A stretch of 64,000 nt of DNA from Isoetes taiwanensis (taxonomy: Eukaryota > Streptophyta > Lycopodiopsida > Isoetales > Isoetaceae). Position 1 is the stretch's first letter; the number at the start of each line of letters is the position of its first letter. Under the pieces are notes generated by a model, which did not search any database, was not told where the DNA came from, and worked only from the letters and a program-made list of their open reading frames with translations. Of the stretch, positions 35,814 through 64,000 are shown piece after piece. Location of the stretch: positions 9,834,292 through 9,898,291 of the forward strand of contig JAJEKV010000049.1 in assembly GCA_021234155.1 (NCBI GenBank), written 5' to 3'. Position numbers and translations under genes: made by a program.

Positions 35814-35858
35814 TAATGTCTCTACTGTAAAAAAGATGGTTTATTTATCAGTTTGATA

Positions 35859-37072: not shown

Positions 37073-37118
<46 letters not shown>

Positions 37119-40100: not shown

Positions 40101-40277
40101 GCTATGAGATTTATCTTTTATCTTTTAACATTGTAACTATTTACAGGTAACGTAGGGTCCTAGCAGAATGCTAGGTACCCTACGCTACCTAGCAATATAC
40201 TAAGTTTTCTTTTAGGACCCTACATCCTGCGGTAGGAGGTAGGTTGCTATATATATATATAAATATAAATATATATA
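37131..40277. repeat. Family A tandem unit 1 (3147 bp)
   Basis: Starts ACAGGTTGGAGACGG and ends in a hairpin, GGTAGGAGGTAGG and a TA run. The same start recurs at 40278, giving the period. Inside are two ~700-bp subrepeats (about 37840-38260 and 38540-38950). Each carries an 80-codon frame starting MPFPKHIINKKTE and containing KKGASFASILKKFG or RKGASFASILEKFG. 39411-39570 contains a second internal duplication (ACATGGTTTTGGGGCTTGAG twice). 39093-39260 has a frame with DKPRDPMYLLALASFWG. No family is recognised; these may be coding fossils. Confidence 0.9.
40146..40189. repeat. Family A end-module hairpin
   Basis: Arms GGTAACGTAGGGTCCTAGCA and TGCTAGGTACCCTACGCTACC pair over about 19-20 bp with one mismatch, one bulge and a GAA loop. 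GGTAGGAGGTAGG follows at 40231-40243, then the TA run. Confidence 0.9.
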
Positions 40278-42938
40278 ACAGGTTGGAGACGGTTGCAACA
40301 TAAGAGCTAGTTACGGCACTTGTGAAACTCATACCGTTGTAGGAGATGTCAGTACTCTCACAACAACGGCTCAAAATACTAAGAGTGTGTTGTCTCCTTT
40401 ATTGCATACGCTCAAAGTACTAGAGCTATGTTTTATCTGGAGCTTTTTGCATAGCGTCCAGACTTTATTTAAGGCAGACTTTCCTTGGATATTTATGGTC
40501 ACCTAGACATTGGCCATTACATGCACATCTTGGCTAGGGTCAACAAAATTGATGATAGTAATTGACCGGACTTGTCGAGGGAGGAATGCTCCCTTGCCTT
40601 GCATCTTGCAATGAGTATGGCAAGAAAAATAATTTGGAGACCTTGGCTATATGCTTAGGCTTTGTTAAACAAAATTGACAAAAACATGAAAAATGGCTTA
40701 ATGCCATACAAAATTAATAAGTATAATTTTGACCTTTAAATTTTTCATGTCAATCATGTAAATTGGTTTAGGGCATGGGCGCCAACGACCCTTTGGTTGC
40801 TACCAACCCGCCTGGTTGCTACCAACCCAGAAGATTCGGATATGGCAAACAAAGCTCCAGATCTCGGATTTTATGCTCATTGCTCATCTTTGATGAAGCT
40901 GGAAGATTCTATCACGACCGATACAAAGCCACACAAAGAACACATATCAGGTGTGTCTTACATTCTATTCTACTTCGTAAATCCTCTAGTTATGGAGTAG
41001 GAAATCCCGAAAAGAAACTTTGAAGAATAAAGCTTCATAAGAAAGTCTGCAGATCACATTTAGGTCGGATTTCAGAAATCGTTTTCTGACATAGCTAATC
41101 TCGTCAAAACTTGACTGTTTTTCATGAAAAGATAGAGCGTATTGTGCCGTTTTCCGAAACATATAATTAATAAAAAACAGAGCTCGTGCTAAGAGCTATG
41201 CCTGTTTTTGTAGGGGCTGTCATTTTATGGCAGCAAGTACTTATCTTCCATTTTTTACAAGCTTAGACTTAAAATTTGATGGAGATGCACCTAAGATGAA
41301 ATATAGACTTAAGAAAGGGGCTTCTTTTGCTTCTATTCTCAAGAAGTTTGGTTGCTTATATCTCTTACTATCGTCAGTTAACTAACAAATCATGTAGGTT
41401 TACATATGATTTTCAATGCAAACGGTGCTAAGCTATGGGCTTGGAGCAAAAGCCAGCGCCTTTGGCACTCTTTATCAAGATTGAAACTATCTTACAGATC
41501 TGATTTTAAGATCAATGGTAGTTCTTAAAATAATGATCTAATTTGAGAACTTGGAAACTACCCAAATAAGACGTAATGTAAATACATGCTGAAATAATGT
41601 TTCTTAGAATGCAAATGCATAACTGAGATAATTCATTGATAGGCTAAATTATTCTTGAACTAGTTATGTTCTACTTTGTATATCTCCGGGTTATGGAGTA
41701 GAAAATCCTAGAAAGAAACTTTGAAGCAAAAGTTTCATAATAAAGTTGCAGATTTCATTAGGTCGGATTTCAGAAATCGTTTTCTGACATAGCAAATCTC
41801 TTCAAAACTTGACTGTTTTTCCTTGAGAGGATAGAGCATATCATGCCGTTTCCGAAACATATAATTAATAAAAAAACAGAGTCTTGTGCTAAGAGTTATG
41901 GCAGTTTCTGTGCGGGCTGTTATTTCATGGCAGCAAATACTTATTCTTCATTTTTGACATGCTTAGACTTAAAATTTCAGAGAGATGCACCTAAGTCAAA
42001 ATGTAGACTCAGAAAAGGAGCTTCTTTTGCTTCTATTCTTGAGAAGTTTGGTTGCTTATATCTCTTGCTATTGTCATTTAGATAACAAACTATGTAGCTC
42101 TCCGTCTACTTTTTTGGAGGCTATCAGTAATTTTGATTATACTATTATATTTTGAACTGCAATTTTTGGGATTTAAGAAAAATCTCAAGTTTTAATTCCA
42201 TTTCTCTTTCTTGTTAACGTTTACGGGGGCAAAAGGATACAATTGGTGATCGGTGATAAACCGAGAGACCCAATGTACCTTTTGGCCCTTGCATCGTCCA
42301 GGGATTACCGCTAACGTTTGCATGATCGCAGTGCAGTGCGGGCTCTCTCCTCCAATTGTCTCTATTTTGCAAACCGGGTTGGTGTTAACGTGGAAGGTTA
42401 TGGAATGGCGCTTAAAAAAATGTAACTCAGATACTATGCACTTTGTATGTTATTGTCTAAACTATTCAATTTCAATTCAATAATAGTGCATTTTTGCAAT
42501 TTACTCGATATTACTTTATGTTTTAAGCTTTTTAAAATTTTGCTACAACAACTTTGCATTAAGGTTACATGGTTTTGGGGCTTGAGAAATCAGCCTTCTA
42601 CCAGGTTGCCTTGAATGTTAAGTGTTGAATTATGTTTATGAATATTTTGCAACTACTTTTCATTGAGAATACATGGTTTTGGGGCTTGAGAAATCAGTCC
42701 TCTACCAGGTAGCCTTAATGGAAAGATATACTTTCAATAATGCTGCACGTTGAAAGGAAAAACTTGTTTATGTGAAAATAATGAACAGCTTCAGACAAGT
42801 ATTGAGCTTATTTAGTATTCTTGTTGGACTCATTTGGTTTAGGGCCTGGGTAGTGCCAGGACAGAATTTCTCTAGCTTCGGTTAAGTGACCAAGTTAGGA
42901 GTATGGATTTGGCTAGATTAGACCCTAGGCAAAGGAAA

Positions 42939-42939
<1 letters not shown>
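40278..42939. repeat. Family A tandem unit 2, 3'-truncated
   Basis: Nearly identical to unit 1 up to GGAAAGTATATAT, where unit 1 continues GCTGAAAC but this copy enters a long TA run. The last ~470 bp including the end hairpin are missing. Both internal subrepeats are kept. Confidence 0.9.

Positions 42940-43031
<92 letters not shown>
42940..43031. repeat. (TA)n tract joining families A and B
   Basis: About 92 bp of uninterrupted TA dinucleotides at the exact junction of truncated A2 and the start of B1 (TCAAATTAACGG). Confidence 0.96.
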
Positions 43032-43034
<3 letters not shown>

Positions 43035-46000
43035 AATTAACGGATGGTTTTGCCCAGTACAAGGCTCAGAAGTTAATTTAAAAACCTATCTTTGATAGTG
43101 TCTCAAATTATCTGCATACTAACATTTGGGTAAGAATCGTGAGGCAGATCGGAAAAAATACAATACTGGCTGCATGACATCTCCAGATAGGGCACAAAGA
43201 CATGGCCCTTGGTAAGCAATAAGGATACACCACGTAACATTGTGGAAAAAATGGTACAGGTGCATTTCTGAGCATGGGCAGCATAGCCTAGTTGGTGGTC
43301 TACCCTACTCAGCACAAGCATAGCGGGCAAGATGGAATAACATGACGAGATGTGAAAATAAGGACATGACCCAGTAAGGTTTGTTTTTAGAAATAATTGA
43401 GCTTTGTTTTTAGAAACATTTGAGGAGTTAAGATGTTATACGGTATGTGGGTGGCATCTCTAGTCTTAATGATGGAGCCAAGTTCTGGGCTAAGGAGAAT
43501 TAAAATATCGTAAAGTCTTATCTAGACTAATCTGCACTTCCCCTATAAAGGAATATGGCTTCCTGTCAAAGTTAATGCCTAAGGGCATAAATACAATGCC
43601 TATGGGCATAAATACAAGGTTGAACAATTTGGACACCAAGAAGATGGAAATTAAACAAGCAAGGTTGGACATTATAAAAACGCAGAGGTGACCACAAGCA
43701 AGGTATAGATGGCAAAATATTTTCAGGATGGCAAAGGCATGGTCCTACATGAGTAATAGATTAAAGCATTTTCACATTAATGGCTATAGCTAGGAGACAT
43801 AAAAGAAGATGAACATACTGCGCGAGATGCATATGGGAAGGACTAACACATAGCATATGTTCAAGATACTGTTCTGGAATGTTATGCCCAGCAGGTTGCC
43901 TAGTCTACCAAACAGTAGCATGTTGGTAAAGCTTGAATAACATGAGCAGTTGCAACATAGGTGCATATGATCTACTGCATTTGAGTATATTCTGCATAAC
44001 ATCTCCAGATAGCACACAAGGACATGACCCTAAAGAAGTAATAAGAGCAAAGCATAGCATACAGTAAGCACCGACATGTAACTTAGGTTCGTGATATCGT
44101 TTTGCAATGTTAAGCCTAGATGGCGGTCTGCTCTACTCAGCACAAGCACAGGCGGCAAGAATGAACAACATGGGGAGATGTAAAAACAAGGGCAGTGCCC
44201 ATAAAATGTTATCTTTAGCAATAACTGATAAACCATGTAGCATTAAAATGTTTAAGTGTATAGGTTCAAAGATCTTTGGTTTTAAATCAATCGGTGGGCT
44301 TGCTTTTACGGGCTAAGGAGAATCACAATACTATAGGGTCTCCTCTAGACTAATATGCACTTTCCCCCATAAGGGAATATGGTTTTCCGTTAAAATTAAT
44401 GCTTATGGGCATAATTGCAAAGTTTGACACAAGTCATTGTAACCGAAGGATGGAAATTAAACAAGCAAAGGTGGACAATTTTTTTAAAAAATATGTAGAG
44501 GTGACTAGAAGCCAGATATAAGGGGCATAACATTTTCGGATTGCATAAACCATGAAAAATGCTGGTTTTTTTTACATACTAACATTTGGGTAACATTCAT
44601 TGAGATAGAACAGAAAAAAAATACAATCTTCGGCCGTTTAGGGTTCGTGGTATCTCTAGGGACGAATCTCCGAGAGGCCCTAAGTTCGATAATGGCGGCA
44701 AATGGTGCAAGTACTCATCCGATATGGTATCATGGTAAAGAATGCCGATCGTCATTGGGCATGGACAAGTCCGCCTAGCAGATGCCGCAGATCATGCAAA
44801 TCGGCTCCATCTTGAACTGGTACTTCTTCATCCCGCTAAATTTACATGGCTTTCTATTTTAGCTAAAGCAAATCATGGAGCCGACATGGCCACGATGCAT
44901 GAGACCACACGGTCAAAAGCGAGAGAGGCTGCTTTCACGGCAGCATTTTAATACCGTCAAACACATCCGAAACCGCCTTTGGTTCTTGAAGAGCGCCTTG
45001 GTTCTTGCCGTTCAAATGGCCAAGAGCAAATTAACAAGGCCCGAAATGATAGGTCTCGATCAAAGGGGCGGAATTGATCTACAAGCCCTTTGCAAGAAAG
45101 AGGAGGAAGCCTTTGCTCAACCGAGCAAAATGTTTCTAATGAGCATTGTAGAGAAGCATCGGTGGCAAAAAGCCCCAACACAAGGAAGGGTGGAGATGTC
45201 AGCTAATATATCACGGGCAACTAGCAAAGCAGAGTGGAGGATACAGTTATCAAGCACATGGAGCAAGAGCACGAAATACAACAAGTGAGAACAATGAGGG
45301 CTTAAATGGATTTGGAGCTTCAACCTGAATCAGGTTCTTTATGAATTAATAATGTTACTCGGATTTTTTTTCTGAGGCAACCGGTTATGCTTTGACTAAA
45401 TAACAATAAATTAACCCTTAAATCTAGGCTGGTCACATGGTGTATAATCTGTAATAGGGCAAAGCGGCAAAGTAAATTATATGTTGAACATGGAGTAAAT
45501 GCGTAAGAATAGATGTAAACTTATTTAATCTTGAATATCCGGGTTGTAGAAACGGTATGTCTAAATGGTAAGGTTTATCTGCATTTAGTATGCATAGGCT
45601 TGGCCCGAAAGGATAGCCATAGGTGGAGGCAACTCTATGCCATAAGACCAGCAATGGCACAAGAAAGCCGATGGGGCAATGCGCTTGTACCGCGGGGCTC
45701 ATATGAACCAGACCTTTGAGTTGACAGGTGAACTGATATGTCACAACAACCAAATAGCGTGTAATCTGCAAAAGAAGTTATGATTCTTCATTACAATAGA
45801 ATTACTGGGACTCCGATTTCCCCTTTGGAATTCGTGATCTGGTCCACGAGGGAGACCATAGGCCCTATGCTGAAATTTAACTGTTATTCTTATTATCTGG
45901 CGAATTCTTTTTTTTGAGCTATCTTAAATACTGAATTATTTGGATTATATTATGAAGTATATAATTTGGTGAAGGGCGTTAAGCCGTGCTTGACTATTGC

Positions 46001-47422
46001 TTACCTGCTAATCCTCTCTTGGTTACCCATTAGGCTAACACTTGACCGGGTTGGATTAGGTAACCAGGTCTAGCACCTCCAGATTCATGCATTTTTGATG
46101 TTTTGGATAATTGTGGAAGTTAAGGATACATTGAAGAAATATAATTACGAAGCATTGAGACAAGGCAAAGATTATCAATTTTCGTAAAATCGCCTTGTTT
46201 GTTACATTTGAGTAAGGTAATGCCTTTTAAATTACAAAATCCTTTCTAGTATATGACTCAATCTATTCAATAATGGGATGGACCACACTTATTGATGGAT
46301 GTTGAGGTGAAACTATGGCTTATGGAAGCCTTCTAGACAGTGACTAAACCAGGATTGTAAGTCTTTCTTTTTGAATCACGATGGAAAATGTTTATCCGCT
46401 TCTCTCGGGTCAGAAATGGAAAAAAGGCTTGCAAGGAATTAGCACAATCTATCTGAATTGAGGCATTGATCGATTTCTGATTTCTTTCGATTTACGTATT
46501 CATTTTAAAACAGGTCTACATATAATACTGAGCATGGCATATATGAATTTAATTAAAAAAAAAGCTTTTGCTTAAAGATATCCTCAGGGCGCACGTTGCT
46601 AGTGTATGGTATAATCCATGGAACAAGAATTTGTAAAACAGTGGAATATTTAAGATTACAACAAAGAATATGATGATGTATTAATGACATATGTCAATAA
46701 ATGTTGATCTCCATAGGCTATCTCAAACCTTATGGTCGAGAACCTGATAATTTCTAAAGCCCATGGTTTAGAAAGCCAAGTCTTTGGTCAAGGCTTTGGC
46801 AAGTTTATATATTAGTGACTTGACACCAGTTTAACTAGTGTGAGTCTTGGAGATCCAACTCTAGTAATGTCTGCACTGCTGAACATGTGGAATAGCATGA
46901 CTTGTAGTTGCGGATGTGATGCATGTGTTTGATAATATACTAAGCATTCTTTCTAGCAGGAAGCAAATATGGAGAACAACTATGATATGGTACATGAAGC
47001 TATAGATCAACAAGATACTCTTGGTCGAGTGTGGATGGATGGTATATGGCAAAGTGCAAAACAAGGACTAATGGCGCATTGCGGGAAAAGGATGGTCATT
47101 GAGGCATGCACATTCTAGGTAATGCCTACCTTAAAAAAGTGTTTTTTCAAAAAAGCATATGCTAAAATAAGTGAGCAATCTGTGTATGACTAGACTACAA
47201 AAGTACGGCCTTTGGCCAAACATAGCAAGCCCTCGGGCGTACCATTAAAAAGCAAATATGCCAACGATATGCGATATTGGCGGCTATGGTTTCTTAACAT
47301 TAGTATAGTCGGGTGGGGATCCCTATGAGTATAGGGTCCTCCCGTCCCTATACTCGCCAGGTATTTCAACGCCTTCCTAGGTTGGAGGTAGGGTTTAGCT
47401 TATATATATACATATATATATA
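43032..47422. repeat. Family B tandem unit 1 (4391 bp)
   Basis: Starts TCAAATTAACGGATGG after a TA run and ends with the hairpin GAGTATAGGG/CCCTATACTC, GGTTGGAGGTAGGG, TTTAGC and TA. The first 1.6 kb is a degenerate internal repeat: CATACTAACATTTGGGTAA occurs at about 43115 and 44575, and CATCTCCAGATAG at about 43178 and 44002. 44690-45290 contains frames that look like decayed coding sequence (FTWLSILAKANHGADMA, KKEEEAFAQPSKMF). Confidence 0.93.
47327..47393. repeat. Family B end module, unit 1
   Basis: GAGTATAGGG (47327-47336) and CCCTATACTC (47346-47355) form a perfect 10-bp stem with a 9-nt loop. GGTTGGAGGTAGGG follows at 47380-47393. Confidence 0.92.
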
Positions 47423-50400
47423 TCAAATTAACGGATGGTTTTGCCCAGTACAAGGCTCGGTTAATTTAAAAACCTATCTTTGATAGTGTCTCAAATTATC
47501 CGCATACTAACATTTGGGTAAGAATCGCGGGAGGCGATCGGAAAAATACAATACCTGGGCCGTGATGACATCTCGGATAGGGCACAAAGACATGGCCCTT
47601 TTTGGTAAGCAATAAGGATACACCACGAACATTGTGGAAAAAATGGTACAGTGCATTTTCGAAAGCATGGGCAAGATAGCCTAGTTGGTGGTCTACCCTA
47701 CCAAGCACAAGCATAGCGGCAAGATGGAATAACATGACGAGATGTGAAAATAAGGACATGACCCAAGAAGGTTTGTTTTAGAAATAATTGAGCTTTGTTT
47801 TTAGAAACATTTGAGGAGACACGTAGTATTAAGATGTTATCTTTTGGGGTATGTGGGTGGCATCTCTAGTCTTAATGATGGAGCCAAGTTCTGGGCTAAG
47901 GAGAATTAAAATATCGTAAAGTCTTATCTAGACTAATCTGCACTTCCCCTATAAAGGAATATGGCTTCCTGTCAAAGTTAATGCCTAAGGGCATAAATAC
48001 AATGCCTATGGGCATAAATACAAGGTTGAAACGTTTGGACACCAAGAAGATGGAAATTAAACAAGCAAGGTTGGACATTATAAAAACGCAGAGGTGACCA
48101 CAAGCAAGGTATAGATGGCAAAATATTTTCAGGATGGCAAAGGCATGGTCCTACATGAGTAATAGATTAAAGCATTTTCACATTAATGGCTATAGCTAGG
48201 AGACATAAAAAGAAGATGAACATCTTCTATGAGATGCATATGGGAAGGACTAACACATAGCATATGTTCAAGATAATTGCTCGAATGTTATGCCAAAGAA
48301 GGTTGCCTAGTCTACCAATTAGCATGTTGGTAAAGCTTGAATAACATGAGCGATTTGCAACATAGGTGCATATGATCTATCGCATTTGAGTATATTCGTG
48401 ATAACATCTCCGTGATAGCACACAAGGACATGACCCTAAAGAAGTAATAAGAGCATAGCATACGAGAAGCAGACATGTAACTTAGGTTCGTGATATCGTT
48501 TTGCAATGTTAAGCCTAGATGGCGGTCTGCTCTACTCAGCACAAGCACAGGCGGCAAGAATGAACAACATGGGGAGATGTAAAACAAGGGCGGTGCCCAT
48601 AAAATGTTATCTTTAGCAATAACCCGATAAACCATGTAGCATTAAAATGTTTAAGTGTATAGGTTCAAAGATCTCCGGTCTTTAAATCACTTGGTGGGCT
48701 TGCTTTCTCCGGGCTAAGGAGAATCACAATACTATAGGGTCTCCTCTAGACTAATATGCACTTTCCCCATAAGGGAATATGGTTTTCAGATTAAAATTAA
48801 TGCTTATGGGCATAATTGCAAAGTTTGACACAAGCCGCGGCAACCGAAGGATGGAAATTAAACAAGCAAAAGGTGGACAATTTTTTTAAAAAAATATGTA
48901 GAGGTGACTAGAAGCCGATATAAGGGGCATAACATTTTCGGATTGCATAAACCATGAAAAAAAATGCTGGTTTTTTTACATACTAACATTTGGGTAACAT
49001 TCGTGAGATAGAAAAAAAAATACAATACCGGGCATTTTAGGGTTCGTGGTATCTCTAGGACGAATCTCCCGTGAGGCCCTAAGTTCCGATAATGGCGGCA
49101 AATGGCTGCAAGTACTCATCCGATATGGTATCATGGTAAAGAATGCCGCGATCGCCATTGGGCATGGACAAGTCCGCCTAGCGATGCCGCGCAGATCATG
49201 CAAATCGGCTCCATCTTGAACTGGGTACTTCTTCATCCCGCTAAATTTACATGGCTTTCTATTTTAGCTAAAGCAAATCATGGAGCCGACATGGCCAACG
49301 ATGCATGAGACCACACGGTCAAAAGCGAGAGAGGTCGCTTACCTAAAGATTTTTAATAATCGGCCAAACACATCCGAAACCGCCTTTGGTTCTTGAAGAG
49401 CCTTGGTTCTTGCCGCTCAAATGGCCAAGAGCAAATTAACAAGGCCCAAATGATAGGTCTGATCAAAGGGGCCGGAATTGATCTACAAGCCCTTTGCAAG
49501 AAAGAGGAGGAAGCCTTTGCTCAACCGAGCAAAATGTTTCTAATGAGCATTGTAGAGAAGCATCTACCGGCAAAAAGCCCCAACACAAGGAAGGGTGGAG
49601 ATGTCGGCTAATATATCACGTGCAACTAGCGCCAGAGTGGAGGATACACGTTATCAAGCACATGGAGCAAGAGCACTAAATACAACAAGTGCGTAACAAT
49701 GAGGACGAAATGGATTTGGAGCTTCAACTGAATCGGGTTCTTTATGAATTAATAATGTTACTCGGATTTTACAGAGGCAACCGGTTATGCTTTGACTAAA
49801 TAACAATAAATTAACCCTTAAATCTAGGCTGGTCACATGGTGTATAATCCGTAATAGGGCAAAGCAGCAAGTAAATTATATGTGAACATGGAGTAAATGC
49901 GTAAGAATAGATGTAAACTTACTTAATCTTGAATATCCGGGTTGTAGAAACAGGTATGTCTAAATGGTAAGGTTTATCCGCATTTAGTATGCATAGGCTT
50001 GGCCCCGAAAGGATAGCCATAGGTGGAGGCAACTCTATGCCATAAGACCAGCAATGGCACAAGAAAGCTGATGGGGCAATGCGCTTGTACCGCGGGCTCA
50101 TATGAACCGACCTTGAGTTGACAGAACTGATATGTCACAACAACCAAATAGCGTGCAATCTGCAAATGAGTTATGATTCAGATTACAATAGAATTCTGGG
50201 ACTCGTTTCCCCTTTGGAATTCAGACTGGTCCACGAGGGAGACCATAGGCTCCTATGCTGAAATTTAACTGTTATTCTTATTATCCGCTGAATTCTTTTT
50301 TTTGAGCTATCTTAAATGATGAATTATTTGGATTATATTATGAAGTATATAATTTGGTGAAGGGCGTTAAAGCCTGCTTGACTATTGCTTACCTGCTAAT

Positions 50401-51810
50401 CCCTCTCTTGGTTACCCATTAGGCTAACACTTGACTGGTTGGATTGCAGGTAACCGGTCTAGCACCTCCAGATTCATGCATTTTTTGATGTTTTGGATAC
50501 TGTGGAAGTTAAGGATACGTGAAGAAATATAATTCTGAAGCATTGAGACAAGGCAGCATTATCAATTTCTGTAAAATCGTCTTGTTTGTTACATTTGAGT
50601 AAGGTAATGCCTTTTAAATTACAAAATCCTTTCTAGTATATGACTCAATCTATTCAATAATGGGATGGACCACACTTATTGATGGATGTTGAGGTGAAAC
50701 TATGGCTTATGGAAGCCTTCTAGACAGTGACTAAACCAGGATTGTAAGTCTTTCTTTTTGAATGCGATGGAAAATGTTTATCTGCTTCTCTGGGCTGTAA
50801 AATGGAAAAAAGGCTTGCAAGGAATTAGCACAATCTATAATTAATTGAGGCATTGATCGATTTGATTTCTTTTCGATTTCAGATTCATTTTAAAACAGGT
50901 CTACATATAATACTGAGCATGGCATATATGAATTTAATTAAAAAAAAAGCTTTTGCTTAAAGATATCCTCAGGGCGCACGTTGCTAGTGTATGGTATAAT
51001 CCATGGAACAAGAATTTGTAAAACAGTGGAATATTTAAGATTACAACAAAGAATATGATGATGTATTAATGACATATGTCAATAAATGTTGGATCTCCAA
51101 GGCTATCTCAATTTTTTATGGTCGAGAACTGATAATTTCTAAAGCCCATGGTTTAGAAAGCCAAGTCTTTGGTCAAGGCTTTGGCAAGTTTATATATTCC
51201 GTGACTTCAGTACACCAGTTTAACTAGTGTGAGTCTTGGAGATCCAACTCTAGTAATGTCTGCACTGCTGAACATGTGGAATAGCATGACTTGTAGTTGC
51301 GGATGTGATGCATGTGTTTGATAATATACTAAGCATTCTTTCTAGCAGGAAGCAAATATGGAGAACAACTATGATATGGTACATGAAGCTATAGATCAAC
51401 AAGATACTCTTGGTCGTAGCTGGATGGATGGTATATGGCAGTGCAAAACAAGGACTAATGGCGCATTGCAGAAAAGGATGGTCATTGGAGGCATGCACAT
51501 TCTAGGTAATGCCTACCTTAAAAAAGTTTTTTTTCAAAAAAGCATATGCTAAAATAAGTGAGCAATCTGTGTATGACTAGACTACAAAAGTACGGCCTTT
51601 GGCCAAACATAGCAAGCCCTCGGGCGTACCATTAAAAAGCAAATATGCCACTGATATGCAGTATTGGCGGCTATGGTTTCTTAACATTAGTATAGTAAGT
51701 GGGGATCCCTATGAGTATAGGGTCCTCCTGTCCCTATACTCAGCAGGTATTTCACTGCCTTCCGGTTGGAGGTAGGGTTTAGCTTATATATATACATATA
51801 TATATATATA
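47423..51810. repeat. Family B tandem unit 2 (4388 bp)
   Basis: Same content and order as unit 1. Many small differences from units 1 and 3 fall where those read CAG or CTG. Its end module is at 51713-51777. Confidence 0.93.
51088..51248. ncRNA. Family B conserved long-range stem, unit 2
   Basis: GTTGGATCTCCAAG (51088-51101) is the perfect complement of CTTGGAGATCCAAC (51235-51248) across a 133-nt loop. Inside, ACACCAGTT-T-AACTAGTGT (51212-51230) forms a second hairpin. The counterpart in family C (60639-60810) keeps both elements with different bases. Calling it an RNA structure is inference; no promoter or transcript is shown. Confidence 0.5.
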
Positions 51811-53484
51811 TCAAATTAACGGATGGTTTTGCCCAAAGACAAGGCTCGGTTAATTTAAAAACCTATCTTTGATAGTGTCTCAAATTATCTCGTGATACTA
51901 ACATTTGGGTAAGAATCGTGGAGGCGATCGAAAAATACAATACCGGGTTCGCATGACATCTCCGATAGGGCACAAAGACATGGCCCTTGGTAAGCAATAA
52001 GGATACACCACGTAACATTGTGGAAAAAATGGTACAGTGCATTTTCGGAAAGCAAAGCATAGCCTAGTTGGTGGTCTACCCTACTCAAAGACAAGCATAG
52101 CGGGCAAGATGGAATAACATGACGAGATGTGAAAATAAGGACATGACCCAGTAAGGTTTGTTTTTAGAAATAATTGAGCTTTGTTTTTAGAAACATTTGA
52201 GGAGACACGTAGTATTAAGATGTTATACGGTATGTGGGTGGCATCTCTAGTCTTAATGATGGAGCCAAGTTCTGGGCTAAGGAGAATTAAAATATCGTAA
52301 AGTCTTATCTAGACTAATCTGCACTTCCCCTATAAAGGAATATGGCTTCCTGTCAAAGTTAATGCCTAAGGGCATAAATACAATGCCTATGGGCATAAAT
52401 ACAAGGTTGAACACAGGCTGGACACCAAGAAGATGGAAATTAAACAAGCAAGGTTGGACATTATAAAAACGCAGAGGTGACCACAAGCAAGGTATAGATG
52501 GCAAAATATTTTCAGGATGGCAAAGGCATGGTCCTACATGAGTAATAGATTAAAGCATTTTCACATTAATGGCTATAGCTAGGAGACATAAAAGAAGATG
52601 AACATACTGCGCGAGATGCATATGGGAAGGACTAACACATAGCATATGTTCAAGATACTGTTCTGGAATGTTATGCCCAGCAGGTTGCCTAGTCTACCAA
52701 ACAGTAGCATGTTGGTAAAGCTTGAATAACATGAGCAGTTGCAACATAGGTGCATATGATCTCGCGATTTGAGTATATTCCCGTGATAACATCTCCGGAT
52801 AGCACACAAGGACATGACCCTAAAGAAGTAATAAGCTAAAGATAGCATACAAGAAGTAAAATATATGTAACTTAGGTTCGTGATATCGCGTTTTGCAATG
52901 TTAAGCCTAGATGGCGGTCTGCTCTACTCAGCACAAGCACAGGCGGCAAGAATGAACAACATGGGGAGATGTAAAAACAAGGGCAGTGCCCATAAAATGT
53001 TATCTTTAGCAATAACTGATAAACCATGTAGCATTAAAATGTTTAAGTGTATAGGTTCAAAGATCTCCAACCTTTAAATCATCGTGGTGGGTTTGCTTTC
53101 GGGCTAAGGAGAATCACAATACTATAGGGTCCCTCTAGACTAATATGCACTTTCCCCATAAGGGAATATGGTTTTAGTTAAAATTAATGCTTATGGGCAT
53201 AATTGCAAAGTTTGACACAAGTTGTGCACCAGAATGATGGAAATTAAACAAGCAAAGGTGGACAATTGAAAAAAAAAAATATGTAGAGGTGACTAGAAGC
53301 CAGATATAAGGGGCATAACATTTTCGGATTGCATAAACCATGAAAAATGCTGGTTTTTTTTACATACTAACATTTGGGTAACATTCGTGAGATAGAACAG
53401 AAAAAATACAATACTGGATGTTTAGGGTTCGTGTATCTCTAGGACGAATCTCCCAGAGGCCCTAAGTTCTGATAATGGCGGCAA

Positions 53485-54145
53485 ATGGCTGCAAGTACTC
53501 ATCTGATATGGTATCATGGTAAAGAATGCTGCATCGTCATTGGGCATGGACAAGTCTGGCCTAGCAGATGCCGCAGTCATGCAAATCGGCTCCATCTCGA
53601 ACTGGTACTTCTTCATCCTGCTAAATTTACATGGCTTTCTATTTTAGCTAAAGCAAATCATGGAGCCGACATGGCCACGATGCATGAGACCACATGGTCA
53701 AAAAGCAGAGAGGCTGCTTCACGGCAGCATTTTAATACTGTCAAACACATCTGGAAACCGCCTTGGTTCTTGGAGAGCGCCTTGGTTCTTGCCGTTCAAA
53801 TGGCCAAGAGCAAATTAACAAGGCCCGAAGTGATAGGTCTGATCAAAGGGGCCGGAATTGATCTACAAGCCCTTTGCAAGAAAGAGGAGGAAGCCTTTGC
53901 TCAACCTAGCAAAATGTTTCTAATGAGCATTGTAGAGAAGCATCGGCTGGCAAAAAGCCCCAACACAAGGAAGGGTGGAGATGTCAGCTAATATATCACA
54001 GGCAACTAGCAGCAGAGTGGAGGATACACAGTTATCAAGCACATGGAGCAAGAGCACGAAATACAACAAGTGCAGAACAATGAGGACGAAATGGATTTGG
54101 AGCTTCAACTGAATCAGGTTCTTTATGAATTAAAAATGTTATTCG
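53485..54145 (+). pseudogene. Possible coding remnant inside family B, unidentified
   Basis: Plus-strand frames show protein-like composition for about 200 codons, broken by a few stops: LVLLHPAKFTWLSILAKANH, VQMAKSKLTRPEVIGLIKGA, CKKEEEAFAQPSKMFLMSIV, then HEIQQVQNNEDEMDLELQ. Equivalent frames exist in units 1 (44742-45288) and 2 (49102-49680) with more breaks. I recognise no domain. The breaks in the other copies coincide with copy-to-copy indels, so part of the damage may be in the sequence rather than in the genome. Confidence 0.3.
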
Positions 54146-55475
54146 GATTTTACAGAGGCAACTGGTTATGCTTTGCCTAAATAACAATAAATTAACCCTT
54201 AAATCTAGGCTGGTCACATGGTGTATAATCTGTAATGGGGCAAAGCAGCAAGTAAATTATATACTGAACATGGAGTAAATGCAGAAGAATAGATGTAAAC
54301 TTACGAATCTTGAATATCTGGTTGTAGAACAGGTATATCTAAATGGTAAGGTTTATCTGCATTTAGTATGCATAGGCTTGGCCTGAAAGGATAGCCATAG
54401 GTGGAGGCAACTCTGTGCCATACGACCAGCAATGGCACAAGAAAGCTGATGGGGCAATGCGCTTGTACTGTGGCTCATATGAACCGACCTTGAGTTAACA
54501 GGAATCTGATATATCACAACAACCAAATAGCGTGCAATCTGCAACAGAGTTATGATTCGTATTACAATAGAATTACAGGACTCCGTTTCCCCTTTGGAAT
54601 TCAGATCTGGTCCACGTAGGAGACCATAGGCTCCTATGCTGAAATTTAACTGTTATTCTTATTATCTGCTGAATTCTTTTTTTGAGCTATCTTAAATACT
54701 GAATTATTTGGATTATATTATGAAGTATATAATTTGGTGAAGGGCGTTAAGCCGTGCTTGACTATTGCTTACCTGCTAATCCCTCTCTTGGTTACCCATT
54801 AGGCTAACACTTGACTGGTTGGATTGCAGGTAACCGGTCTAGCACCTCCAGATTCATGCATTTTTTGATGTTTTGGATACTGTGGAAGTTAAGGATACGT
54901 GAAGAAATATAATTATGAAGCATTGAGACAAGGCAGCATTATCAATTTCTGTAAAATCGTCTTGTTTGTTACATTTGAGTAAGGTAATGCCTTTTAAATT
55001 ACAAAATCCTTTCTAGTATATGACTCAATCTATTCAATAATGGGATGGACCACACTTATTGATGGATGTTGAGGTGAAACTATGGCTTATGGAAGCCTTC
55101 TAGACAGTGACTAAACCAGGATTGTAAGTCTTTCTTTTTGAATGCGATGGAAAATGTTTATCTGCTTCTCTGGGCTGTAAAATGGAAAAAAGGCTTGCAA
55201 GGAATTAGCACAATCTATACGAATTGAGGCATTGACTGATTTCTGATTTCTTTCTGATTTCTGTATTCATTTTAAAACAGGTCTACATATAATACTGAGC
55301 ATGGCATATATGAATTTAATTAAAAAAAAGCTTTTGCTTAAAAGATATCCTCGAGTATGCGTTACGTTGCTAGTGTATGGTATAATCCATGGAACAAGAA
55401 ATTTGTAAAAGCATTGGAATATTTAAGATTACAACAAAGAATATGATGATGTATTAATGACATATGTCAATAAAT

Positions 55476-55629
55476 GTTGGATCTCCAAGGCTATCTGACC
55501 TTATGGTCGAGCGATAATTTCTAAAGCCCATGGTTTAGAAAGCCAAGTCTTTTGGTCAAGGCTTTGGCAAGTTTATATATTAGTGACTTCTTGACACGGT
55601 TTAACTAGTGTGAGTCTTGGAGATCCAAC
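55476..55629. ncRNA. Family B conserved long-range stem, unit 3
   Basis: GTTGGATCTCCAAG at 55476-55489 pairs perfectly with CTTGGAGATCCAAC at 55616-55629. In unit 1 the left arm is damaged (GTTGATCTCCATAG near 46703) while the right arm (about 46845-46858) is intact. Confidence 0.5.
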
Positions 55630-56182
55630 TCTAGTAATGTCCGGTGACTTTTGAACATGTGGAATAGCATGACTTGTAGCGGATGTGATGCATGTGTTTG
55701 ATAATATACTAAGCATTCTTTTCTAGCAGGAAGCAAATATGGAGAACAACTATGATATGGTACATGAAGCTATAGATCAACAAGATACTCTTGGTCGTAT
55801 TTGGATGGATGGTATATGGCGAAGGCAAAACAAGGACTAATGGCATTGCATTAGAAAAGGATGGTCATTGGAGGCATGCACATTCTAGGTAATGCCTACC
55901 TTAAAAGTTTTTTTTTCAAAAAGCATATGCTAAAATAAGTGAGCAACTGTGGTATGACTAGACTACAAAAGTGCGACCTTTGGCCAAACATAGCAAACCC
56001 CTGGGCGTACCATTAAAAGCAAATATGCCTTGATATGCGGTATTGGGCTATGGTTTCTTAACATTAGTATAGTCGTGAGGGGATCCCTATGAGTATAGGG
56101 TCCTCTGTCCCTATACTCGGCGGTATTTCAAGCGCCTTCCGGTTGGAGTAGGGTTTAGCTTATATATATACATATATATATA

Positions 56183-57500
56183 TCAAATTAACGGATGGTT
56201 TTGCCCAATTACAAGGCTCGAAGTTAATTTAAAACCTATCTTTGATAGTGTCTCAAATTATCGCATACTAACATTTGGGTAAGAATCGTGAGGCCGGTCG
56301 GAAAAAATACAATCTTGGCTGCATGACATCTCGGATAGGGCACAAAGACATGGCCCTTGGTAAGCAATAAGGATACACCACATAACATTGTGGAAAAAAT
56401 GGTGCAGTGCATTTCACGAGCATGGGCGAAGCATAGCCTAGTTGGTGGTCTACCCTACCGGCACAAGCATAGCGGGCAAGATGGAATAACATGGCGAGAT
56501 GTGAAAATAAGGACATGACCCAGTGGGTTTGTTTTAGAAATAATTGAGCTTTGTTTTAGAAACATTTGAGGGAGACCGTAGTATTAAGATGTTATACGGT
56601 ATGTGGGTGGCATCTCTAGTCTTAATGATGGAGCCAAGTTAGGGCTAAGGAGAATTAAAATATCGTAAAAAGTCTTATCTAGACTAATGCACTTCCCCTA
56701 TAAAGGAATATGGCTTCTGTCCAAAGTTAATGCCTAAGGGCATAAATACAATGCCTATGGGCATAAATACAAAAAGGTTGAACACGTTTGGACACCAAGA
56801 AGATGGAAATTAAACAAGCAAGGTTGGACATTATAAAAGCAGAGAGGTGACCACAAGCAAGGTATAGATGGCAAAATATTTTGGGGATGGCAAAGGCATG
56901 GTCCTACATGAGTAATAGATTAAAGCATTTTTCACATTAATGGCTATAGCTAGGAGACATAAAAGAAGATGAACATACTGCTTGAGATGCATATGGGAAG
57001 GACTAACACATAGCATATGTTCAAGATCTTTGTTCGGAATGTTATCGGGTTGCCCTAGTCTGGTAGCATGTTGGTAAAGCTTGAATAACATGGCGGTTGC
57101 AACATAGGGTGCATATGATCTGCATTTGGTATATTCATAACATCTCCGGATAGCACACAAGGACATGACCCTAAAAAAAGTAATAAAGGCGCCATAGCAT
57201 ACGGTTAGCACCGCATGTAACTTACGTTCAGTGATATCGTTTTGCAATGTTAAGCCTAGATGGCGGTCTGCTCTACTCAGCACAAGCACAGGCGGCAAGA
57301 ATGAACAACATGGGGAGATGTAAAAACAAGGGCAGTGCCCATAAAATGTTATCTTTAGCAATAACTGATAAACCATGTAGCATTAAAATGTTTAAGTGTA
57401 TAGGTTCAGCATCTCCAGTCTTAAATCACTGGTGGGCTTGCTTTCTGGGCTAAGGAGAATCACAATACTATAGGGTCTCCTCTAGACTAATATGCACTTT
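56183..57500. repeat. Family B tandem unit 4, truncated
   Basis: Contains only the first ~1.3 kb of the unit. It stops after ATATGCACTTTC and switches into family C sequence. The two share only a few bases (CACTT-CT) at the join. Confidence 0.9.
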
Positions 57501-60500
57501 CTAAAAATTGGCAATGAAGCCACTTCTATAATGAGGTTGCTAAGGTTTAATGACCAATTACAGGCTTGTGCAAGCATACTGGGCCAAGGTGAAATTACAG
57601 CACTACCTTCGTGATTTCTGAAGGCTACGTCTACAGGAAGTTGGAATATGTGTGCCCTGATGTAAACGAACCAAATGTACAAGTTGGTGGAACCATATGA
57701 CTTGTGAGTGGTTTTTTTATTTATGGTATGCCTAGCTTTGTCGCCGCTGTCGGAGATATCATTATTCATGATGTATCTATTGCCACTGGATAATACCATT
57801 GGGAATCTGAATAATGCATGCACTTAGGCGGTCGCGGCGGACATGCAATTTGTAAGCAATTTGTGGATATTCCCATAAATGGTAAATGGAAGCACCAAAG
57901 CGAGTTCTCAAGGTAATGGCTCAAGGGTTGACCTTCATGTGCACATGAGCATCTTGGGGTAAGGTGAGATTTACAGCGGTGGCAAAGCATAAAAACCTTG
58001 TGGCACTAGATAAATTATCTACGAAATATGACCGGCATTGTGGAGTAAGCTTTGGCAATTTGGTAAGTGCCACAAAACATGGTAAGCGTTTTGGCAATCT
58101 AAAACCATGGAAATTGCTTTCGAACATTTGCAAAATAGAAATTGTGATTGATTTGGGCTTGTCAGCAGTGCGGTGGTGCAACATCTTAAATATGACCTTG
58201 AAATATCCTATGTGGATTGTCCGGTAGCACATGAAGTGTAAATTTGAAAAAATACTAACAAAGCGGGGCATTTTTTTTATTGTTATGACAAGGTATTGGA
58301 AAAGCAAGGGGCAAGCAATATGTGGCGTGTTCATTCAAGCTAAGGATTTGATTTATTCTACTTTTGCAAGGTCATTTATGGCGAGAAAATGTTAAGGTGA
58401 AAAATAAGAAGGGCCTCACTTTGATAAAGCACATGCAACCTTCGTAGTGCATGCTTGCCACTTGGCATTCAAATGATTTAATGAGTTTGCATGCCTTTCT
58501 TACTAACCTTTATTTTACATCTAGTAATGCACTTTCATGGGCATCATTAAGAAGGCATTGTGGGCTTTTGCTGACCACAAAAGGGCGCTGAAAGGCACAA
58601 AAAGCGAGGATATTTCGAGAGAAGTGGAGCTACAAGCGGACATGTCATGGTAATGGCTCAAGAGGCTAATATGGAGGCGTATGCAATTTTTTATCAAGGT
58701 AACAAAAATTGACAAGGTAATAAATAATGGTCAAAAATTATATGAGATTAGGGTAAACTAGTTCATTACGTGGCAATTACGACTAAGGGAAAGGCTGTCT
58801 TGGGATTGCTACCAAATGGGGTTACGGCATTTCACGCTTCGAAGACTGATCAGTCGCGATGTTGCAGACTTGGCGATCATGGCATTATGTGCACCATGAT
58901 CAAGGCTGTATAGCCGATCTAGGGTGGAAGATGCTCTTTCCATTAGAGCAAGGTCTAGCGAGAATCTTCCCGAACCCGGAGGAGCAAACCATGAACAATG
59001 GCGAGGAGATCAATGCTAGAATGGCTCCATCCTAACGGGGTTCTTTGCTTGGGATTCTCTTTGTGGCATTTTGAACTCATGGTTTTATAAGTTTATGACT
59101 TAGAGGCTTTGTCTACGATCTTTGCAACATAAATTAAATCTAGAAAGATCCTTAGCATGGCTTGTCTGCATAGTAATCGATAGAATCATCGTGCTTTTTA
59201 GTTTTACGGAGCTCTGCGTTTTCTTAGAAAAGCCCTACTCAAGAGTACATTTTAGGATCTAAGCGGCGATTAATACCCGGGATAAAAGAATGGAAGCGAC
59301 CTCAAGATCTTTGGATTTATCCTTATTTGCGAGGCACAGGGAATGTGTAACTTGCATCTTGCTCCCTATCCATTATTTTTTAGAATGGATTTAATAGTAG
59401 AATTGAATGAGTGATGTGAATACATGAGGGGGTATTAACATCACGAATGTAAAAAGTACGAGGAATAGTAGAATAATATGGTAGCCTTGATTGTGGAATT
59501 TAATATTTAACATCGATGTGAGTCCTATAGAACCGAGGCTAATCTTGAGACTTTATTATGGATATGTAATCTCACCTCCTATCTTGATGTATTTGAAGCG
59601 ACCTCTCACGAGGTTTATTCTTTGAGAGGAGATCTTCTTTACCACGATTACATAGGCTCCATAAGCATGGAACATAAAAAATCTGAGAATAATCTAATAT
59701 TGAATTCGGGTTTTGCACCCACTTTTATTACGAGCTTTTGCATATCTGATATTAATTTTGTGGCCTTGCCTATATGTTGCTTTATCATTTGACTCAACAT
59801 TTTGGAGAAAGCATTAGCATGTCATGGCAACCCTTTGCAAAAGCCAATGGTTTAACTTAGCATTTGAATTTAAGCTTCTTTGCATAATTATGGAGCGGTT
59901 TTGAAACCCGACACAATGTTTGTTATTTGAGCTCTTAAATAATGTTTGGTAAAAGGCGATAAGCGAGTAAAGTTATAGCTTACATGGGGTTCCTTTCTAG
60001 TTTACCCTTCTCGGGGCTAACTCTGACCCGATTTGTACCGAGGTAACCAACTTTACTCTTCAAATATCTTCGTATTTGGATTTGGATGAAGTCTTGAACA
60101 ATGAAGAAAATATTTCTACTACAAGATCGAGGAATTTAAGCCTATTATGGTTTGAATTATGCTTTCATTGATTCGGTAAGTGCATGCTTGAGCACATGGA
60201 TAAATATCTTGTAACATGTGTCAAATTTTGACGATTTCTAAAGCTGGATATGAACATCACGAGGTAATTCTATGGATTTGAAATAATGGCCGAGCTGTAT
60301 GTCGCTAGTTATGTTTAATGGAAAAAAGAATATTTGGAATTCATTTTGGCGGTTGTTTATGAGTGCGAGATTTAATAATCGAATATAGAACATCTGACTG
60401 GAGTTTTTCGAGAAAAATATATCGGTGTACAATTATGCTTACATTTGAGCACCTGGACCCGACATGCAAATATTTGAAGAGTTAAATGCTTAAGAATGTA

Positions 60501-60638
60501 TTCGGTCTATCTGCCGGTGTATTAGAAATTCAAGTTACGAATTGGTGAATATTTGCATGGGCATGCTTATGGATTATGATCATGAGCAGACATGAAATAG
60601 GTTTTGCATGTCTTAAAAGTAAGTAAAGATTTAAGATA

Positions 60639-60810
60639 TTGGTTCCTAAGGCTCCCCTAGTTTGACTAGGGGTGATAAGTTCTCTTTGGCTTTAAGCTTT
60701 ATGTTTTTAAGGCCAAGGGAATGAATGCATGCGTTAAGGAGCGGAAAGGCTTCGGATATATTCATTGACTTCAGTTTATTGGTTTAACCAATTTGAGCCT
60801 TAGGAACCAA
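60639..60810. ncRNA. Family C conserved long-range stem
   Basis: TTGGTTCCTAAGGCTC (60639-60654) is the perfect complement of GAGCCTTAGGAACCAA (60795-60810) across 140 nt. Inside are two further hairpins: CCCCTAGT-TTG-ACTAGGGG (60654-60672) and ATTGGTT-T-AACCAAT (60778-60792). The second stands next to the right arm, exactly as in family B. RNA function is inference. Confidence 0.5.
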
Positions 60811-62063
60811 GGTGGATTGTTTTTCTTGTCTTAAATAGCATTTTATATGCGTTTACACTTATCATTCTGATTCCAGAAGTTCTAACGTTTTCCTGAATTT
60901 TAGGAGGGAATACAAGCGTAAATGAAATCTCAAATTCCTGAAATGGAAATTACTCGGCTTGCAAATAAGGAATCTTCAGAGTGATACATAGACCTTGTTG
61001 CTTTGGGGCAAACCAACAAACGTCAATCATGGCAGATTAATGGAGCAGTACCCACCAGGGTGGTTTTTTACATACAAACAAGGTACTCTGGTTACATATT
61101 CAAGACACAAACTTGCTTTGCAAGCATTAGCCCCTTGGGCAAAACTGGCTATTATGCCTTTACTTCAGAACTTGCTTTGCAAGCAATAGCCCCTTGGGCA
61201 AAACTGGCTATTATGCCTTTACTTTAGGGCCTTGCCCCAATACTTGTCCCAACTGTAACAGGTTGATCGTGCATTTATTGGTCCATTTCATGGCATTGCT
61301 GCGAGAAATCTGCAACAGCTAATACATGGCACTTGAGGTGGCACAACGTACATGGCAATTGAGGAGGATACCTTTCGGGCACGAGCTTTGACACTACAAC
61401 CATCATTAGAATCATAAAACTTTCAAAACTCACGGGTAATCTCAAATTTTACTGCTATTAATGGAGCATTACCCATTAGCGTGATCATTTGAGAGACACA
61501 CAAATAAGGTATCCCTTACTATGGTTGTTATGCATCAACTTGCTTAATATTGGTGTCTTTTTAAAGTTCTTGCCTTGCAAAGAGATCGCTAATGTGGTAC
61601 ATAGTTATTCTTCTTCTGAATTAACTATGATTCGAAACCTCAACTTGCTTTGCAAGTGTTAGCCTGGGCAAAGCGGCTATTATGCCTTTACTTGAGGGCC
61701 TTTGCGATATTTTTTCCCAAGCGTAGCAGGGGTGATCATTTATTCTACTCATCAATTCCATGGCATCACTTGGAGATAACATTATGATAAAGGGATAAAC
61801 TACCGTTCATCTCAAATATGTGCTAGTTGATGCATCTTGACCCTAGCATTGGTCAAACAACTTCTTTTTATCCCGGATCCATGAGTAAAGACATTCATAA
61901 ACAAAGGCTTTGATGAGGACATTTAAGGCCGCGATTAATCTGAGAACCTTTTCACAAGATTGAGCTTGGGATAGCTATCACTATTAGGGCACTCAAATTA
62001 TACAGGTATGACTAAATTTCTGTTCTGTATTTGCAATAAATGATAGTGGGCAGGGGGGGTCCT

Positions 62064-62133
62064 TATGTAGAATAGGGACCCTCCCCTCCCCTTTCTACAT
62101 ATAGACAGCTCATGCCTTAGGTTGGAGGTAGGG
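62064..62133. repeat. Family C end module
   Basis: TATGTAGAA (62064-62072) pairs with TTCTACATA (62093-62101); GGGA/TCCC adds inner pairs. GGTTGGAGGTAGGG follows at 62120-62133, then T-rich sequence and the TA run. Confidence 0.88.
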
Positions 62134-62168
62134 CATTTTTTATATATATATATATAAATATATATATA

Positions 62169-64000
62169 TCAAAGCGAGTTTGTCAAGTCTTAAGGTTGAT
62201 GTGCTCACTTTTGGAAAAAGGGAACATAAAAATTGGGCAAGGGAACCACTTCTAAAAATTGGCGATGGAGCCGCTTCTAAAATTGGCAATGAAGCCACTT
62301 CTATAATGAGGTTGCTAAGGTTTAATGACCAATTGAGGGCTTGTGCAAGCATCTTGGGCCAAAGGTGAAATTAAGCCACTACCTACGCCATTGATTTACG
62401 AAGGCTAAATCTCTGAGGAAGTTGGAATATGTGTGCCACGATGTAAGCGAACCAAATGTACAAGTTGGTGGAACCATATGACTTGTGAGTGGTTTTATTT
62501 ATGGTATGCCTAGCTTTGTCGCCGCTGTCGGAGATATCGTATTCATGATGTATCTATTGCCACTGGATAATACCATTGGGAGTCTGAATAATGCATGCAC
62601 TTAGGCGGTCTTGGCGGACATGCAATTTGTAAGCAATTTGTGGATATTCCCATAAATGGTAAATGGAAGCACCAAGCGAGTTCTCAAGGTAATGGCTCAA
62701 GGGGTTGACCTTCATGTGCACATGAGCATCTTGGGGTAAGGTGAGATTACACTGGTGGCAAAGCATAAAAACCTTGTGGCACTAGATAAATTATCTACGA
62801 AATATGACCCGGCATTGTGGAGTAAGCTTTGGCAATTTGGTAAGTGCCACAAAACATGGTAAACGTTTTGGCAATCTAAAACCATGGAAATTGCTCGAAC
62901 ATTTGCAAAATAGAAATTGTGATTGATTTGGGCTTGTCAACGAATTGCAGGTGGTGCAACATCTTAAATATGACCTTGAAATATCCTATGTGGATTGTCC
63001 CAGTAGCACATGAAGTGTAAATTTGAAAAAAATACTAACAAGCGGGGCATTTTTTATTGTTATGACAAGGTATTGGAAAAGCAAAGGGGCAAGCAATATG
63101 TGGCGTGTTCATTCAAGCTAAGGATTTGATTTATTCTACTTTTGCAAGGTCATTTATGGCGAGAAAATGTTAAGGTGAAAAATAAGAAGGGCCTCACTTT
63201 GATAAAGCACATGCAACCTTTCGTAGTGCATGCTTGCCATGGCATTCAAATGATTTAATGAGTTTGCATGCCTTTCTTACTAACCTTTATTTTACATCTA
63301 GTAATGCACTTTCATGGGCATCGTAAGAAGGCATTAATGGGCTTTTTGCTTTGTCCTAAAAGGACATGAAAGGCACAAAAAGCGGGGATATTTCGAGGAA
63401 AGTGGAGCTACAAGCGGACATGTCATGGTAATGGCTCAAGAGGCTAATATGGAGGCATTATGCAATTTTTTTATCAAGGTAACAAAAATTGACAAGGTAA
63501 TAAATAATGGTCAAAAATTATATGAGATTAGGGTAAACTAGTTCATTCACGTGGCAATACGACTAAGGGAAAGGCTGTCTTGGGATTGCTACCAAATGGG
63601 GTTACGGCATTTCACGCTCACGAAGGCTGATCACAGTCCGCGATGTTGCTTGGCGATCATGGCATTATGTGCACCATGATCAAGAGGCGTATAGCCCGAT
63701 CTAGGGTGGAAGATGCTCTTTCCATTAGAGCAAGGTCTAGCGAGAATCTTCCCCGAACCCGGAGGAGCAAACCATGAACAATGACGAGGAGATCAATGCT
63801 AGAATGGCTCCATCCTAACCCGGGTTCTTTGCTTGGGATTCTCTTGTGGCATTTTGAACTCATGGTTTTATAAGTTTATGACTTAGAGGCTTTGTCTCGA
63901 TCTTTGCAACATAAATTAAATCTAGAAAGATCCTTAGCATGGCTTGTCTCGCATAGTAATCTGATAGAATCATCGTGCTTTTAGTTTTTACGGAGCTCTG
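62169..64000. repeat. Family C tandem unit 2, continues past the window
   Basis: Starts TCAAAGCGAG after the TA run, analogous to TCAAATTAACGG in family B. From 62275 it repeats 57501 onward closely. The first ~105 bp, absent from truncated C1, shows two extra short copies of CTTCTAAAAATTGGC. Confidence 0.92.

Follow-up and report, generated by a model that had tools for sequence, protein, structure and literature searches.

A conserved multi-helix RNA domain at the insertion ends of dispersed tandem repeats in Isoetes taiwanensis

Why would two diverged families of non-coding tandem repeats share a long-range stem whose letters differ but whose pairing does not? The question is raised by a 64,000-nt stretch of the Isoetes taiwanensis assembly GCA_021234155.1 (contig JAJEKV010000049.1, forward-strand positions 9,834,292 to 9,898,291; hereafter the window), in which self-BLAST reveals three tandem families, A, B and C, side by side and in one orientation (+). 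An earlier note, made from the letters alone, had described the pairing arms in B and C and suggested selection for a folded RNA or a cruciform. We find that these arms (helix P1) close a conserved multi-helix RNA domain, which we call E2, and that dispersed copies of the repeats end inside it, next to TA-rich DNA. The arrays are as follows.

37073..42946 (+): A-type array, body-linker-body, unit ~3.15 kb (self-BLAST and sequence reading)
~39795-40250 (+): A-type linker
43010..57501 (+): B-type array, 3.3 units of ~4.39 kb, directly after (TA)n
57499..64000 (+): C-type array, 1.4 units of ~4.78 kb within the window

The A-type array passes into (TA)n at 42940. An end copy of the C-type E2 lies ~1.5 kb past the window (C1055:9899704-9899834; locus L105).

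The P1 stem and the E2 domain

The paired arms are present where they had been reported, and they extend to 17 bp in B and 16 bp in C.

51088-51104/51232-51248: P1 arms of B2, 17 bp including one G.U, loop 127 nt
55476-55492/55613-55629: P1 arms of B3, 17 bp including one G.U, loop 120 nt
60639-60654/60795-60810: P1 arms of C1, 16 bp, loop 140 nt

Of the loop lengths given earlier, 133 nt holds for the 14-bp B2 arms then considered, whereas the longer arms enclose 127, 120 and 140 nt. The matched changes on both arms are confirmed as two double-compensatory changes and one paired deletion. In a hand alignment from B to C, A-U becomes U-A, C-G becomes U-A, one U-A is lost and G.U becomes G-C, the other 12 of 16 pairs being kept. 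When two substitutions and one deletion were placed on each arm independently, the arms stayed fully paired (G.U allowed) in 4,046 of 2,000,000 simulations (0.2%). A single 16-bp stem is only moderately unusual (the best stem of the same spacing class in 20 dinucleotide shuffles of the window had 12-18 matched bases), but homologous stems in two diverged families do speak against chance. Pairwise alifold of B and C over 200 columns gave -38.2 kcal/mol on the + strand (z score -12.6) and -25.7 on the - strand (z -9.5), with 0 of 60 column shuffles as good in either case; single-sequence E2 folds have z scores of -5.9 and -6.9. Chance pairing of the arms was rejected on the column shuffles and the stem comparison. 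The hairpin with a TTTAA loop that had been seen before the right arm is also present and corresponds to helix P5 of E2, which occurs in the window at five places.

46701..46861 (+): E2 in B1, left arm and CAG/CTG sites differing from clean copies
51086..51250 (+): E2 in B2, in the order P1, P2, P6, P3, P4, junction after 51197, P5, P1'
55474..55631 (+): E2 in B3
60635..60814 (+): E2 in C1, junction after 60761
39674..39848 (+): E2 in A1, GGACTCA 39674-39680 / TGAGTCC 39842-39848, junction after 39794

The left arm of the first B copy (46701-46861) is damaged, and errors occur in clusters in the copies of the window, so B1, B2 and B3 do not amount to three clean witnesses. In a larger set of 18 B-type copies (16 distinct), over 54 pairs, 95.8% of pair cells are paired, and 25 cells changed on both sides compared with 8.2 +/- 2.1 in shuffles (0/500) and at most 6 in slid controls. 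Double changes affect 8 pairs against 4.7 +/- 1.2, a value reached by 8 of 500 shuffles. Both counts use a structure taken from one row and shuffles that ignore relatedness, and the 18 copies, a selection from the available B-type set, include some that carry assembly errors. The earlier note had proposed a covariation test with R-scape on a larger alignment; our deeper alignment and a count of that kind, made without R-scape, support selection for a folded RNA.

E2 is seen in seven diverged types. Besides B, six types keep its helices with different letters, A more weakly. The E2 model (R2) found further types in fetched loci, namely in L072 (54 bits, fold z -11.8), L064/L065 (50/45 bits, z -10.3/-8.5), the minus strand of L065 (45 bits, z -6.9) and a coding element of L113 (36.4 bits, L113 2144-2012). 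Both this model and its counterpart R1 for a second domain, E1, were trained on window copies and give rough E-values; loci L035-L054 were fetched through E2 and L055-L074 came from the same E2 listing, so that recovery of E2 in 20/20 is circular. Every type but A has P1, P2, the AUAUAUUC junction and a P5 whose loop is TTTAA/TTCAA-like. The short P6 reads CUGA/UCAG, CCGA/UCGG or UUCGA/UCGAA, and P3 and P4 are more variable between types. In the A copy, which is less well supported (fold z -3.0; 6.8 bits, E 0.69 with R2, among other weak matches), P1 and P2 are kept, the junction is TA-rich and P5 forms a hairpin with a different loop. This by-type comparison illustrates rather than tests the domain, with one chosen representative per type, L113 excepted, and arms drawn by eye from folds. 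An alternative A-type candidate at 39400-39573, a 12-bp stem with a 148-nt loop from local duplication, was dropped because the end of the A array put the junction at 39794. A Pol III (RNA polymerase III) gene at E2 was also rejected, as inspection by eye gave no promoter or terminator pattern common to B and C.

Whether the fold acts as RNA or as a DNA cruciform had been left open. The best folds of seven structured segments have more G.U pairs on the + than on the - strand in six and a tie in one; among the four B and C copies of E2, B2, B3 and C1 have more on +, and B1 is the tie. Together with the lower + strand alifold energy this lends modest to moderate support to RNA. In the other direction, single-copy fold z scores on the - strand match those on + for C1 and are more extreme for B1. 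Arm-to-arm conversion, which would make one arm a recent copy of the other, is possible for any single stem but on its own explains poorly why G.U intermediates occur and why short inner helices have double changes.

E2 is one of two islands with the clearest structure in a wider B-C similarity, which covers ~1.4 kb upstream of the unit-boundary element (score 417 against a shuffled mean of 151, standard deviation 15; with stiffer gap costs 200 against 118, standard deviation 12, over 0.9 kb). The other island is E1, ~0.7 kb upstream of E2.

45986..46083 (+): E1 in B1
50374..50472 (+): E1 in B2, first of ten closing pairs C.C
54754..54852 (+): E1 in B3
59965..60065 (+): E1 in C1, closing helix GAGTAAAGTT/AACTTTACTC

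The E1 closing helix has six double changes in 10 pairs (shuffles 1.5 +/- 1.0, slid versions at most 1), a count that represents one contrast between two families, with three B copies and one C copy. E1 was recovered in 20/20 loci, 3 of them the window's own, and the loci had not been selected through E1. With model R1 no E1 was detected in A, where the corresponding position has, by eye only, a candidate closing helix GAGAG(A)CCCA/TGGGCTCTC. A splice-site reading of E1 was dropped, likewise by eye. A third, weaker fold signal of the B-C alignment lies at B 51540 (z -3.4 on +). Pairwise scans of the remaining units with single-letter shuffles gave p 0.066 for the B-C boundary and 0.28-0.72 for other B-C matches, 0.016 and 0.033 for the main and second B-A matches, and 0.033 for the main C-A match, with one shuffle higher.

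Dispersal of the repeats and the point where copies end

Searches of the assembly (1,658,258,908 bases, 1,110 contigs) scored the best 40 of 91 (B), 40 of 71 (C) and 40 of 367 (A) candidates. E2 copies of all three types are spread over many contigs (40 listed each), and A, B and C are therefore mobile elements. Three diverged families adjacent in one orientation might otherwise have suggested a host cluster of tandem long non-coding RNA genes under birth-and-death evolution. Genome-wide dispersal of all three types, with insertions in (TA)n, refutes this as the main account and leaves it next to no probability. The A copies among the best 40 are 96-100% identical to those of the window, and to judge by this the A-type may have moved recently.

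The matches often stop at one point. Among the best 40 B-type rows, 11 stop at query 126-134 (near 128), and 10 of the 11 go from ...CAAGT(T/A)TATAT.. into (AT)n, which is short in L058, L062 and L063; the eleventh, L071, continues into other sequence and lacks the (AT)n. Likewise 11 of the best 40 C-type rows stop at query 133-142 (near 142, one at 133), all 11 at the homologous place beside TA-rich DNA: nine in clean (AT)n, L103 in a short tract and L105 in an imperfect one. The stop point is the body|linker junction inside E2, ...TATATAT|, from which E2 extends ~110-125 nt upstream and ~50 nt downstream. The window's A array ends at GGAAAGTATATAT followed by (TA)n, while A1 continues beyond the same point. 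All four C-type array starts examined lie after (TA)n at the same base, and at locus L069 (TA)n flanks a lone B body that has no linker. Array ends, array starts and the single body thus define the insertion as body(-linker-body)n in TA-rich DNA. Bodies start after TA tracts with TC (B, C) or AA and end with TATATAT, the exact ends being blurred by the tracts. Among the matches listed, C-type arrays comprise 4+1, 3+1, 2+1, 1+1 and 1+1 full plus end copies; five further C-type end copies have no full neighbour listed, which is not proof of a single state.

Two other classes of mobile element could produce such arrays. A rolling-circle (Helitron-like) DNA element, whose subterminal inverted repeats would pair as DNA, fits the head-to-tail arrangement, the precise ends in TA-rich DNA and the TC with which B and C bodies begin. 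However, no CTRR 3' end is seen at A, B or C ends, the stem joins the body to a linker that is absent from the single insertion (L069), G.U pairs are more frequent on +, and a coding version has reverse transcriptase (RT)-like motifs. We consider this origin very improbable.

Somewhat less remote, yet still doubtful, is a long terminal repeat (LTR) retroelement resembling large retrotransposon derivatives (LARD) or terminal-repeat retrotransposons in miniature (TRIM). Here the body would be a long LTR, the linker the internal region and E2 the U5/primer-binding-site leader, with arrays formed by LTR-LTR recombination and solo bodies as solo LTRs. Body-linker-body units, a solo body and longer arrays agree with it, as do a purine-rich GGTTGGAGGTAGGG near the next body and, in the types L064d and L065e, a TGG ~4 nt beyond the junction; Cassandra is known to form tandem arrays (PMC7215508). 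On the other hand, TG...CA ends are lacking, A, B, C, L072d and L113 have no TGG at that position, and the letters after the junction follow their P6 partners (UCAG, UCGG, UCGA) and not one tRNA. A primer-binding site for the initiator methionine tRNA (iMet), the tRNA searched, is absent from the arrays within 2 mismatches.

Coding relatives and a possible priming role for E2

Contig C963 holds a tandem pair of units. Downstream of E2 (L113 2144-2012) come, in order, an open reading frame (ORF), ORF1 (1872-613, 420 aa), a frame of 153 aa, an ORF of 724 aa that has RT-like motifs, a hairpin, GGTTGGAGGTAG and TATA. The two tandem RT-like frames of C963 are 94% identical, one having a gap. By eye we take GIAMGFACSP and YRYMDDL of the 724-aa ORF to be putative RT motifs and see what may be a thumb like that of Penelope-like elements (PLEs). 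In L072 and L064/L065, E2 also precedes ORFs that are similar by eye. Because ORF1 and a putative divergent RT lie there in relatives, with E2 just upstream, the linker can be read as the coding region, probably lost in A, B and C. The tandem layout of pseudo-LTR (pLTR) and ORF typical of PLEs is thus found here, and A, B and C look like its non-coding members. They may work like a Penelope element, but we do not file them as one. In the coding-element body, upstream of E2, there is also a 314-aa ORF (L113:2983-3924, -) with no Pfam match.

We infer the following mechanism from the covarying fold, the end points, the TA-rich flanks and the position of E2 upstream of ORFs. A, B and C would be retroelements of Penelope-like layout that land in (TA)n, where E2 presents UAUAUAU and primes reverse transcription internally; in our judgement the chances that this is correct are evenly divided. 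The tandem units would consist of body (pLTR) and linker (the ORF region, non-coding in A, B and C). A transcript would start near the TATA-rich linker end and run through one or more units. The element's RT would bind E2, whose multiloop would expose UAUAUAU at the junction. Nicked (TA)n DNA could then pair with UAUAUAU and prime copying that proceeds from the junction into the body. Insertions would end inside E2 because its downstream half (P5 and the right P1 arm) would be required for folding but would not be copied. Internal priming would explain a domain on both sides of the end point and a junction that is TA-rich in every type seen.

The closest parallel is PAc, a PLE of the anole (PMC11167929). 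There, reverse transcription is initiated within the RNA, 111-118 nt into the ORF, and requires the ORF's first 172 nt; the enzyme cuts AT-rich DNA, and the RT start is not homologous to the target. Both systems have tandem units with pLTRs, an RT (putative in our elements) in the internal part, AT-rich targets, insertion ends (in PAc at internal RT start sites near the pLTR-ORF junction) and a need, proposed here, for RNA past the start (PMC11167929). They differ in that GIY-YIG, the endonuclease of canonical PLEs, is not detected in our elements, the end coincides with the junction and shares TA homology with the target, a large covarying domain stands in place of a hammerhead, and A, B and C are non-coding.

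Several observations weigh against this mechanism. The RT similarity is weak: 700 aa of the 724-aa ORF match Pfam RVT_1 at E 0.0096, below cut-off, and the NCBIfam group II RT at E 0.0035, far below cut-off; the single row from PDB (E 0.75) belongs to a photosynthetic protein, not an RT, and a 3-row profile search found no RT. Neither the 700-aa stretch nor ORF1 had an endonuclease match or a GIY-YIG match in Pfam at E<=10, a search whose HMMER filters drop most weak matches. Endonuclease-deficient PLEs do exist. The proposed start would match the target and sit at the junction itself, unlike that of PAc. The model detects the A-type E2 only weakly; this copy has no TTTAA-like P5 loop, and no P6 was identified in it by the by-type comparison. 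E1 is more extreme on - (z -5.3 against -3.0 on +), with the single C-type E1 fold no better than shuffles (45/200).

The same end points could arise by cleavage. E2 would then be a self- or enzyme-cleaved RNA, a new ribozyme class, that cuts tandem transcripts at UAUAUAU|UC and leaves a 3' end to prime on (TA)n. Hammerheads sit at monomer junctions in retrozymes and some Penelope elements. E2 straddles the end point, unpaired GAUAA, AUAUAUUC and UGACUUC are conserved in most types, and a single body without linker exists, all of which would suit cleavage. Yet no Rfam family, the hammerhead included, was found at gathering score in the window or nine loci, and the PAc hammerhead is dispensable for insertion in vitro (PMC11167929). 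We regard cleavage as unlikely, though less so than the LTR origin. A reading in which E2 is a novel kind of RNA domain, belonging to plant retroelements that locate their targets through pairing of RNA with nicked (TA)n DNA, start reverse transcription internally and use microsatellites as landing sites, or in which it forms a new class of ribozyme there, has in our view slightly less than an even chance.

Comparison with other plant elements is instructive. Retrozymes are also non-coding plant retroelements with structured RNA in their repeats, but they have ~350-bp LTRs and a hammerhead (PMC4918200), whereas the bodies here measure several kb and have no Rfam match. Cassandra, a TRIM, is likewise non-coding and forms long tandem arrays in plants including ferns; it differs by a 5S-derived Pol III promoter in its LTRs (PMC7215508), to which no Rfam match in the window corresponds. 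Plant RNA structures have also been discovered comparatively: PMC12218528 lists 16 candidates with modest covariation, of which five probably regulate splicing in cis and some resemble snoRNAs; E2 differs in residing in mobile elements. Our literature search, which did not extend to subscription papers and preprints, found no report of an E2-like domain among the papers listed, those under Isoetes and Penelope being judged by title. In our judgement a covarying RNA domain of this size, marking the end of new copies, would be unusual in plant mobile elements. It would supply a mechanism by which elements land in TA microsatellites, opens internal RT initiation, which biochemistry has established for a Penelope element of an animal (PMC11167929), to tests in plants, and provides a structural way to find non-coding relatives once sequence similarity is lost.

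Unit boundaries and other features

At the unit boundary, A, B and C all have a palindromic hairpin followed by GGAGGTAGG and a TA tract.

40150..40280 (+): A linker end, palindromic hairpin (fold z -5.2), GGAGGTAGG and (TA)n, promoter-like
47308..47425 (+): boundary element B1/B2, fold z -1.4, 18/200 shuffles as good
51692..51812 (+): boundary element B2/B3
56066..56183 (+): boundary element B3/B4, with GGAGTAGGG, one letter short
62045..62173 (+): boundary element C1/C2, fold z -3.7

The B body contains an internal ~450-bp duplication (43285-43733 / 44113-44545 and copies, ~66-69% identical). In the A body there are two tandem ~75-nt hairpins (39390-39580 and 42540-42740), with fold z scores in the first copy of -4.1 and -4.8 on + and -2.7 and -1.5 on -. 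Just upstream of the A array, 35840-36140 is strongly self-complementary and includes a 57-bp tandem repeat.

In many copies the differences from clean ones fall, by eye, mainly at CAG/CTG trinucleotides; they are clustered in 44000-57500 and in loci L040, L046, L051 and L053, while L036, L037 and L039 are clean. They may reflect nanopore errors where CHG sites are methylated, in which case the arrays would be silenced; the published assembly was made with v9.4.1 nanopore flow cells (PMC8566536).

Database searches of the arrays yielded little. Pfam had no match for four B-array frames tested and plasmid BLAST none; at E<=5 over 37-64 kb Rfam gave a single match, mir-1277 on a TA tract, far under gathering score. 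A pattern scan of viral contigs returned 34 short matches, which were taken as chance.

Elsewhere in the window, 8913-20673 is a Copia-like LTR element (LTR pair 8913-9208/20378-20673, 91%) with an ORF carrying an SH3_retrovirus domain and, at 20365 (-), a putative iMet primer-binding site. In 27300-28480 long inverted repeats, the largest of 49 bp, lie clustered and resemble miniature inverted-repeat transposable elements, and 31652-32866 has exon-like frames with a weak condensin Cnd1_N match below cut-off. On the same contig, 33 kb past the window (G000:C1055 9931571-9955259), lies a second B-then-C cluster, with three B-type E2 copies followed by two full and one end C-type E2.

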